Shown here piece by piece: positions 5,755 to 12,568 of a stretch of DNA of 54,037 nt. The stretch comes from a bacterium. GTDB taxonomy: Bacteria > Patescibacteriota > SICC01. Position 1 is the stretch's first letter. Every line of letters begins with the position of its first letter. Under the pieces are notes generated by a model. It was not told where the DNA came from, did not search any database, and saw nothing but the letters and a program-made list of their open reading frames with translations. The DNA is taken from assembly GCA_030699935.1 (NCBI GenBank), contig JAUYKS010000014.1:1-54037 (forward strand), given 5' to 3'. The position numbers and the translations under genes were made by a program.

Positions 5755-7323
5755 ATGAAGCCAGCCAAACGGCCTATTCCTTCAGATGTCCGCGAAAAGG
5801 TGCTCGGGCGTGACGGGTATCAGTGTAATGAATGTGGTGCCCGCAAAGATGACGGGGCCGTTCTTCATTTGCACCACGTCATCGAAGAGCAGTTTGGCGG
5901 TACTGAGGATCCGGACAATCTTATTACGCTTTGCGACATTCATCACAATACGGTCCATATCGGTTTCCAGGCGTACTATCCGGAAAGCAGGAAGACCATC
6001 GTCCGGATGGCCGCCATCACCCGGGCGTTGCTTGATTTTATTTGGAGCGCCCTGCCCGTGACCCCGGCATGGCGAGCCCGCCTAGTCCTTAAGTTTCTGA
6101 CCGGCAAGACTAAGTTTCGTCGAGGACAATGGCCGGTGATCAAGGCGTTGTCTAGGAACGAGAACGTCTTATTCGTAACACCGACGGGATCAGGTAAGTC
6201 CTTGTGCTATCAGCTGCCGGGCCTGCTTCGCAACGATCCCACGTTGGTAATCTCTCCGTTGAAGGTGCTTGTGAGGGAGCAAGCTGCTTTTCTTGCCAAG
6301 AAGAAGATTCCGGCGACGTTTATCAATAGCGACGTTGGCGCGCAGGATAAGCGGAACCGGATAGCGATGATCCGCGACAAGCTTTTCCGATTCGTGTTCG
6401 TCACTCCCGAACGATTCTATGGAAAGTCTTTTCATGCGGATAGTCCGCTGCTGATTCGTTATGGACTGCTCGCTGTCGACGAGGCGCATTGCATTGATAA
6501 ATGGGGTCGGCATTTTCGACCGGCCTACGCGCAATTAGGGACCTTGCGGAATCATCTCAACAAGCCACCGACGCTGGCGCTGACCGCATCGGCTTCGAAG
6601 GACGCGCAGGACCGGATACTGCGCTCCCTCAAGATGTCGCAAGCGAAACGGGTGGTGACGGGTTTCTATCGACCGGAAATCCGCTTGAAGACAAAGCTTA
6701 TCAAGTCCCATCGCACCACCGATGATCGAGAGCTCTTTGCTCGAAAACTGGAAGCACTCACGCGCTTTGTAGACAATAAGCCGCAAAAGACGATCATCTT
6801 CGTACCTACGATCGGAATCGGCGACCGCATCCTTCCGGCCCTCCATGATTCGGTTCAATTCTTTCATTCCAAGAAAGATGCGAAGGAGCGGGAAGCAACG
6901 TACCAACGCTTCCGGGAGGGGAAACGAAGCATCCTGATCGCCACTTCGGCGTTCGGCATGGGACTTAATATTCCGGATATCCGTCGGGTAGTGCACTGGA
7001 GCATCCCGGCGAATCTAGAAGAGTATTACCAGCAAGTAGGCCGGGCCGGTCGGGATGGCAAGGTCGCTCAAGCACTCCTGCTGTATGCTCCCGGGGACGA
7101 AGGACTGACCCGATGGATGAATAAGAAAGCCTTGGAATCGGCAACCCACTTAGGAACGAAGGATCGCGCTTCCGTCGGGTCTATCGAAGAGCGGGAGCTG
7201 CGGGAAATGCTCGACTATTTGCGTGCAAAAGATAAATGGCGTTACGTACTCGACTACTTCGGGGAACGGCAGACCTGGCTCAGCATGTTTGCCAAGAGTC
7301 TGTGGCGATCCGTACGGTACTAA
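5755..7323 (+). CDS. HNH endonuclease domain fused to RecQ-like DEAH helicase
   Basis: HNH: RDGYQCNECG...LHLHHVIEEQFGGTEDPDNLITLCDIHH; helicase: TPTGSGKSLCYQLP, AVDEAHCIDKWG, TALTASA, ATSAFGMGLNIPDIRRVVHWSIP, YYQQVGRAGRDG. Confidence 0.9.
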   Translation: MKPAKRPIPSDVREKVLGRDGYQCNECGARKDDGAVLHLHHVIEEQFGGTEDPDNLITLCDIHHNTVHIGFQAYYPESRKTIVRMAAITRALLDFIWSALPVTPAWRARLVLKFLTGKTKFRRGQWPVIKALSRNENVLFVTPTGSGKSLCYQLPGLLRNDPTLVISPLKVLVREQAAFLAKKKIPATFINSDVGAQDKRNRIAMIRDKLFRFVFVTPERFYGKSFHADSPLLIRYGLLAVDEAHCIDKWGRHFRPAYAQLGTLRNHLNKPPTLALTASASKDAQDRILRSLKMSQAKRVVTGFYRPEIRLKTKLIKSHRTTDDRELFARKLEALTRFVDNKPQKTIIFVPTIGIGDRILPALHDSVQFFHSKKDAKEREATYQRFREGKRSILIATSAFGMGLNIPDIRRVVHWSIPANLEEYYQQVGRAGRDGKVAQALLLYAPGDEGLTRWMNKKALESATHLGTKDRASVGSIEERELREMLDYLRAKDKWRYVLDYFGERQTWLSMFAKSLWRSVRY

Positions 7324-11332: not shown

Positions 11333-11953
11333 ATGGTGACTGAACTGATCGAATGGGTGTCGGGCCTGGCGACCGGTCTGATCGAAGCGTTCGGGTATCT
11401 CGGGATTTTCCTGGGGATGGCGATCGAGTCGATTAATATCCCGCTGCCGTCGGAAGTCCTGATGACGTTTTCCGGAGCGCTGGTTGCCAAGGGCGAGTTC
11501 AGCTTCTGGCCGGTCGTGCTGATCGGCGCACTCGGCAACGTAGTCGGATCCGTCGGGAACTACTACCTGGCGGCGTACGGCGGGCGGCCGCTGTTCGAGA
11601 AGTACGGAAAGTACGTCCTGGTGCACAAGCGCGACTTGGAAACCGCCGACCGCTGGTTCGCCAAGTACGGCCTGGCGACGGTGTTCTTCACCAGAATGCT
11701 GCCGGTGGTCAGGACGTTCATCTCGTTCCCGGCCGGTCTCTCGCGAGTGCGACTGGTGCCGTTCGTGCTGCTGACGTTCGCCGGCTCGTTCATCTGGTCG
11801 GCGCTGCTGACCTATCTCGGCTTCTACTTCGGCGAGAACTATGAAGCGCGGATCCGGCCGATCTTCAAGCAGTTCGACCTGGCGATCGGAGCGGCGCTGG
11901 TGCTGCTGGTCGTCTGGTATGTCGCACGGCACCTGCGATTACGCCGGCACTGA
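11333..11953 (+). CDS. DedA family membrane protein
   Basis: ESINIPLPSEVLMTFSGAL, GNVVGSVGNYYLAAYGGRP, FFTRMLPVVRTFISFPAGLSR. Confidence 0.92.
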   Translation: MVTELIEWVSGLATGLIEAFGYLGIFLGMAIESINIPLPSEVLMTFSGALVAKGEFSFWPVVLIGALGNVVGSVGNYYLAAYGGRPLFEKYGKYVLVHKRDLETADRWFAKYGLATVFFTRMLPVVRTFISFPAGLSRVRLVPFVLLTFAGSFIWSALLTYLGFYFGENYEARIRPIFKQFDLAIGAALVLLVVWYVARHLRLRRH

Positions 11954-11993
11954 TTCCGAGCCAGCACCGGTAGGTAGTGGATCGCCTATACAT

Positions 11994-12097
11994 CTTTTTC
12001 GTTACTTCCAAACATCTGCAATCTTTTGCAGATGTTTTACAGAAACATTGCAGATCTTTTGCAGATGTTTTGTAGATTCTCGGAAGTAACGAAAAAG
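11994..12097. repeat. 16-bp perfect inverted repeat enclosing five 11-bp tandem units
   Basis: Arms ctttttcgttacttcc (11994-12009)/ggaagtaacgaaaaag (12082-12097); units TTTTGCAGATG, TTTTACAGAAA, CATTGCAGATC, TTTTGCAGATG, TTTTGTAGATT at 12024-12078; inner palindrome aaacatctgcaa/ttgcagatgttt (12010-12037). Confidence 0.9.
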
Positions 12098-12171
12098 AAC
12101 TCCCTAGGTCCAACGGAACCGCACCGTATCGCGAGGCGTCCAACGGGAATCCGTCCAGTCAGTCGGGCGGA

Positions 12172-12205
12172 ACGGAGCGTGATCAAAAAAGATCGGACGC
12201 TCCGT
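12172..12205. repeat. hairpin with A6/T6 loop
   Basis: acggagcgt-gatc-aaaaaa-gatc-gg-acgctccgt, downstream of the minus-strand gene at 12233-12568. Confidence 0.55.
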
Positions 12206-12232
12206 CCCGGGTTCCCCACTGCACTGCTATCT

Positions 12233-12568
12233 CTAATTTCCTTGCCAATTTTGCCGGGGCTGATCTCTCGTGGCGTTCCGGCGCCGTCTGGTAAGTCGGC
12301 TGACGATCAGCAACAGTCCGGCAGCTGCCGCGCACAACGCCACGATCCGGATTTGCTGGTAGTAGCTCGATCCGAGTGTGGCGATTCCGAACATGATGAT
12401 GCCGATGGCAAAGACCGGTCCACCGGCGCTTTTGTGGATCCGGCCGATGAACAGGGCCGCGAAGCACAGGAACAGTCCGACGGTCCAGCCGAATTCGGCG
12501 TACGTCGCCGGATCGGCCGCGACCAGGAGCAGGTACAACACCGCGAGTCCTACGATGAAACGGGTCAT
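12233..12568 (-). CDS. small integral membrane protein
   Basis: Hydrophobic 111-aa ORF with SD-like AGAAAGGAAACC before ATG. Confidence 0.65.
   Translation of the reverse strand: MTRFIVGLAVLYLLLVAADPATYAEFGWTVGLFLCFAALFIGRIHKSAGGPVFAIGIIMFGIATLGSSYYQQIRIVALCAAAAGLLLIVSRLTRRRRNATRDQPRQNWQGN

Follow-up and report, generated by a model that had tools for sequence, protein, structure and literature searches.

What is the A+T-rich palindromic repeat that lies between two convergent genes of this bacterium, and how did it come to be there? The window, by which we mean the whole stretch of DNA analysed, is contig C9, 54,037 bp long, from a 26-contig assembly of 762,227 bp that is 93% complete. Positions 1–141 of the window match the end of contig C2 (24162–24302) without a single difference; this is an assembly overlap, which makes C2 the contig immediately upstream. 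The repeat sits between dedA (forward strand, ending at 11953) and a putative membrane ORF (reverse strand, 12233–12568), the convergent pair named in the initial annotation. Its core is 65% A+T in a contig of 62% G+C, in keeping with the description of an AT-rich repeat in a GC-rich setting. The location itself is nothing special. The same convergent spacer holds a second inverted repeat (12168–12209), about 70 bp from the first, which is G+C-rich, with 13-bp arms, a 16-bp spacer and no following T-run.

The perfect 16-bp inverted repeat that had been claimed is right to the base. Positions 11994–12009 and 12082–12097 are exact reverse complements, and with 11993 and 12098 added the match becomes 17 of 17, giving a left terminal arm TCTTTTTCGTTACTTCC (11993–12009) and a right terminal arm GGAAGTAACGAAAAAGA (12082–12098). 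By chance 0.01 occurrences of the arm would be expected in the window, and there are two. The claimed 12/12 palindrome at 12010–12037 is also real: it reads AAACATCTGCAA-TCTT-TTGCAGATGTTT, with 12010–12021 pairing to 12026–12037 around a TCTT loop, and forms an apex that the window copy has in common with the 71-bp form described below. Five 11-bp units follow on the forward strand (12024–12078), with exactly the sequences quoted in the initial annotation, and T4 tracts recur every 11 bp in this interior. Three of the units are extra compared with the 71-bp form; the interior is 72 bp long, or 39 + 3x11, and the window copy is thus an expanded, n=3 form. It also contains a 33-bp imperfect tandem duplication on the forward strand (12010–12075; 12010–12042 against 12043–12075, 79%), a direct repeat absent from the initial annotation, and this is the likely expansion step. 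The CTC at 12079–12081 forms, with the preceding ATT, the GAGAAT-side joint, and marks the polarity of an interior that is asymmetric throughout the family.

The repeat is not confined to this site. A search of the genome for the arm, suggested in the initial annotation as a check, gave 24 matches at two mismatches or fewer, all within one family. Searches with the element and with the arm together define 14 copies in the 762-kb genome, on six contigs and all in non-coding DNA. Besides the window copy (C9, 11993–12098) these are C7 5939–6028; C19 12407–12524, 20606–20678, 26898–26970, 29312–29384 and 32713–32785; C21 12563–12635 and 18186–18302; C22 10534–10606, 41455–41527 and 127750–127822; and C24 8034–8106 and 12077–12160. 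Arms of 16–17 bp, some of them imperfect, are present in 13 of the 14, the exception being the copy at C19 32713–32785 (C19e), which has lost one. Genome-wide, only two 16-bp inverted repeats are exact and have a spacer of 150 bp or less; they both belong to the family. Comparing the whole genome with itself revealed, tRNAs aside, no further dispersed repeat family of note. None of the copies carries a conserved gene, the ORFs that overlap them being mechanical frames judged spurious. In this dense genome two copies lie between convergent genes, two between divergent genes and the rest between codirectional genes or nearly so, and no fixed orientation relative to the genes was found.

All the copies are built to one plan. 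The cores are non-coding and 71–115 bp long, and two inverted arms of about 16 bp (CTTTTTCGTTACTTCC) enclose an interior of 39 + 11n bp, with n = 0–4. Interiors are therefore 39, 50, 61, 72 or 83 bp long, and every one of the 13 copies with two ends obeys the rule. The 71-bp, n=0 form is represented by eight intact copies. In the common orientation it reads CTTTTTCGTTACTTCC-GAGAATCTGCA-AAACATCTGCAA-AAGA-TTGCAGATGTTT-GGAAGTAACGAAAAAG and amounts to a 28-bp stem with one strand interrupted by an 11-base bulge; the motif GAGAATC is invariant across these eight. Each arm has two almost invariant parts, CTTTTT and TTACTTCC, separated by a dinucleotide that varies (CG, GC, CC, TG), independently on each side. 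Among the arm pairs of the eight intact short copies, a small sample of similar sequences, none of 28 has a two-sided (compensated) change, and every shuffle gave at least the observed number of paired cells. Since a change in one arm is never balanced by one in the other, what is conserved is not RNA base pairing, and to judge from the sequences the arms resemble bipartite protein-binding DNA ends more than an RNA stem. Slippage or unequal crossing-over between units is the simplest explanation of the 11-bp expansions.

Conservation extends beyond the arms. At positions 3 and 4 outside them there is a TA, with T and A each present in 23 of the 26 ends compared (consensus TA-Y-N-Y-CTTTTT). The window copy has it on the left (11989–11990) and has lost it on the right, where TC stands at 12101–12102. 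The TA is repeated directly, and at symmetric offsets, in 10 of 13 copies. Target duplications longer than this dinucleotide did not rise above the cross-copy control (5.3 against 4.8 bp). Nor do the outer flanks of the same copy form palindromes in excess of cross-copy pairs (7.8 against 8.0). A first idea, that the TA is simply the target duplication, is weakened by conservation that runs past it, to a weaker A/T preference at positions 8–10 (A at +8) and a C at +13. This means that the TA may belong to the outer arm of the element instead of being a duplication, and the shoulders are compatible both with insertion at a TA in a favoured context and with an outer arm of which the TA is part.

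The short-form copies have a core identity of 0.94, which falls to 0.44–0.46 in the flanks at 1–20 bp and to about 0.27, the background, farther out. A few pairs of copies (C19b/C24a, C21a/C22c, C21a/C22b, C22a/C22b and C19d/C21b) have in addition a common flank of 24–57 bp on one side only, which begins at the edge of the core or directly beside it. One possibility is that these are mosaic flanks from exchange between copies. The flanks of several copies, for example C19d and C24a (L036, L043), contain short local tandem repeats of about 9–18 bp, which differ from copy to copy (for example GAAACCCAAA and TCCGGAGTCAGGCA).

On the basis of these observations, we think it likely that the family is a young, lineage-specific, non-autonomous terminal-inverted-repeat element of MITE-like type. 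The family has several of the features by which bacterial MITEs are recognised, being non-coding and under 200 bp, with terminal inverted repeats and dispersed copies whose flanks differ. It also matches the bacterial MITE-like repeats that have been described as shorter than 200 bp and A+T-rich, with terminal inverted repeats and TA at the termini (PMC2229807). We call it MITE-like rather than a proven MITE, because we found no transposase with matching ends and the only visible duplication is TA. We hypothesise that a transposase acting in trans, now lost or unrecognised, bound the bipartite ends (CTTTTT and TTACTTCC, with the variable dinucleotide between them). Copies would have inserted at TA-containing sites, in an A/T-rich context bracketed by G/C, and insertions into genes would have been purged. 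Slippage or unequal recombination would later have added or removed 11-bp units, whose T4 tracts lie one helical turn apart. On this view the window copy is an n=3 expansion, probably with no dedicated function there today. Against simple cut-and-paste are the one-sided common flanks, which that model does not predict. The initial annotation had offered four readings of the locus, and of these the MITE remnant is the best supported: for it speak the 14 copies, the terminal inverted repeats, the fixed TA, the intergenic positions and the absence from the nearest relative, and against it the lack of a longer target duplication and of a transposase with matching ends. Nothing was found in support of another of the four, a recombination or attachment site.

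A partner transposase was sought in the genome. Y1_Tnp and rve are absent. The only DDE_3-type match is an ISAzo13 transposase on contig C14, which was rejected as partner, its inverted ends bearing no resemblance to the element. This contig (L083) is 3658 bp long, with the ISAzo13-family transposase adjoining a group II intron reverse transcriptase/maturase and a 258-bp inverted repeat (98%) near its ends. It has no match in G001, a relative described below, and may be foreign to the genome, either a contaminant or an assembly artefact. No better candidate was found among 30 species-specific frames scanned, namely the largest and those nearest to copies. No autonomous element with matching ends is present in the 93%-complete genome, where every arm is either one of a close pair or the single arm of a degraded family copy; the autonomous partner could be extinct or encoded in sequence that the assembly lacks. 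Elsewhere in the window, an ORF at 5755–7320 (forward strand) encodes a protein whose N-terminal HNH endonuclease domain is joined to a RecQ-type DEAD helicase, with no G001 homologue in the gene comparison. Contig C1 encodes a 447-aa reverse transcriptase (L070, 3726–5069, reverse strand) with weak similarity to AbiA and antiviral RTs and a third-position GC that is low (0.35) for this GC-rich genome.

The search of related genomes suggested in the initial annotation brought no further copy. G001 belongs to the same genus, is assembled in one contig, and is largely syntenic with the host genome at about 80% DNA identity. It contains no copy, either by nhmmer profile search (800 kb of 810 kb) or by whole-genome search. 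Its spacers differ at every site and two are nearly closed (C19b, 210 bp against about 0; C21a, 299 bp against 40), its intergenic DNA being too diverged to give a base-exact empty site. There is likewise no copy in G002, from the same family, in three class members, or in 382 genomes of the phylum, where one weak 27-bp match was judged chance. A scan of 85,462 species genomes with the pattern TTACTTCCRARMATCTGCAA gave 10 single matches in unrelated genomes, also judged chance, as was one 35-bp match (2e-3) to a Paenibacillus phage among phage records; a plasmid search with the element gave no match. Given the absence from G001, G002 and the class and phylum samples, the burst appears, as far as seen in these sequences, to be restricted to the host species or its unsampled kin.

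The copies are not evenly spread. When placed on G001 they all map to 248–551 kb, a stretch in which the GC skew reaches its minimum (near 430 kb) and which also holds dnaA (444.6 kb). Ten of the 14 lie within 75 kb (P ~0.00015 against random intergenic placement), and this clustering counts against the MITE-like reading. The restriction to one arc has P 0.0002, which becomes a marginal 0.04 when the 75-kb cluster is counted once. A link to ori or ter was therefore rejected, the positions mainly reflecting one cluster, and the replication-associated site that had been proposed gains no support, with one of the 14 copies near dnaA.

We regard it as unlikely, although less so than the other alternatives, that the repeat is a host protein-binding array, with a dimeric protein on the arms and helically phased 11-mers between them, serving nucleoid organisation, silencing or gene regulation. 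An interior that lengthens in one-turn steps only, T4 tracts at each 11 bp, isolated conserved positions (TA at +3/+4, A at +8, C at +13) in shoulders that vary elsewhere, the clustering of the copies and the failure to maintain arm pairing would all suit such an array. However, every copy is missing from the syntenic, same-genus G001, gene orientation is unrelated, and the ori-side restriction is mostly one cluster. The same absence from a relative of about 80% DNA identity speaks against the protein-loading array of the initial annotation. A combined version is improbable: a species-specific nucleoid or regulatory array would have been co-opted from a MITE-like element and concentrated in one 75-kb segment of this reduced genome, its paired arms would bind a dimeric protein, and occupancy or DNA bending would be tuned by how many 11-bp units a copy contains.

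An RNA element acting as a long hairpin, as an mRNA 3'-end stabiliser, a processing site or a small RNA, is quite improbable. The transcript does fold well, at -51.4 kcal/mol against -21.1 for shuffles (z -8.4), but this is expected of any long inverted repeat. The missing two-sided changes and the arm-pairing shuffles noted above argue against conserved pairing, there is no orientation preference, and the window copy has no Rfam match, the window matching tRNAs only. An intrinsic terminator was rejected: as the initial annotation had pointed out, the polarity is the opposite of a rho-independent terminator, with the T-run on the 5' arm, before the hairpin, and the A-run on the 3' arm, after it, on both strands.

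It is very improbable that these are REP/BIME-like palindromes spread by a REP-associated (Y1) transposase. The copies are short, palindromic and extragenic with mosaic flanks, but the genome has no Y1 transposase, and the cores are 71–115 bp with two long arms, whereas REP units measure 20–40 bp and carry a GTAG/CGTC tag at one of their ends (PMC3733652). A one-off local slippage product can practically be dismissed, since the look of the window copy's 11-mers and 33-bp duplication, and the absence from the relative, are set against thirteen further copies in the same genome with the same arms and interior, which refute slippage for the whole element and leave it standing for the extra 11-mers only.

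Comparison with known systems places the family among familiar types. Iterons and phased A-tract protein-binding arrays have units one helical turn apart and T/A tracts, as the family does; in contrast, most family copies have only 2–3 units, they are missing from the syntenic relative, and they are not tied to one locus. REP/BIME sequences are also dispersed extragenic palindromes with mosaic neighbouring modules, but the family is longer, two-armed and without the GTAG or CGTC tag and the Y1 transposase. No partner transposase is known for ERIC/IRU, and the same is true of the family. Like the family, ERIC/IRU is an imperfect palindrome of about 100 bp, intergenic and multi-copy, with TA at its ends (Table 1, PMC2229807). 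There is no sequence relation, the host lineage is another, and ERIC/IRU has 7-bp TIRs (PMC2229807) where the family has arms of about 17 bp and an interior expandable by 11 bp. RUP of pneumococcus and Correia/NEMIS of Neisseria are likewise short and non-coding, are bounded by TIRs and have TA at their termini, and the TIRs of RUP resemble those of IS630-Spn1 (PMC2229807), whereas no IS with matching ends was found for the family and its TA is at most a candidate duplication.

The family is new to the collections searched, but as a kind it is ordinary. Our literature search on Patescibacteria and MITEs found nothing relevant, and the significance of the finding is that a tiny non-coding element appears to have undergone a recent burst in a bacterial genome of about 0.8 Mb, where such families seem little described. 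The variable dinucleotide within otherwise fixed ends, together with the strict 11-bp series, provides a handle on what a trans-acting protein recognises.
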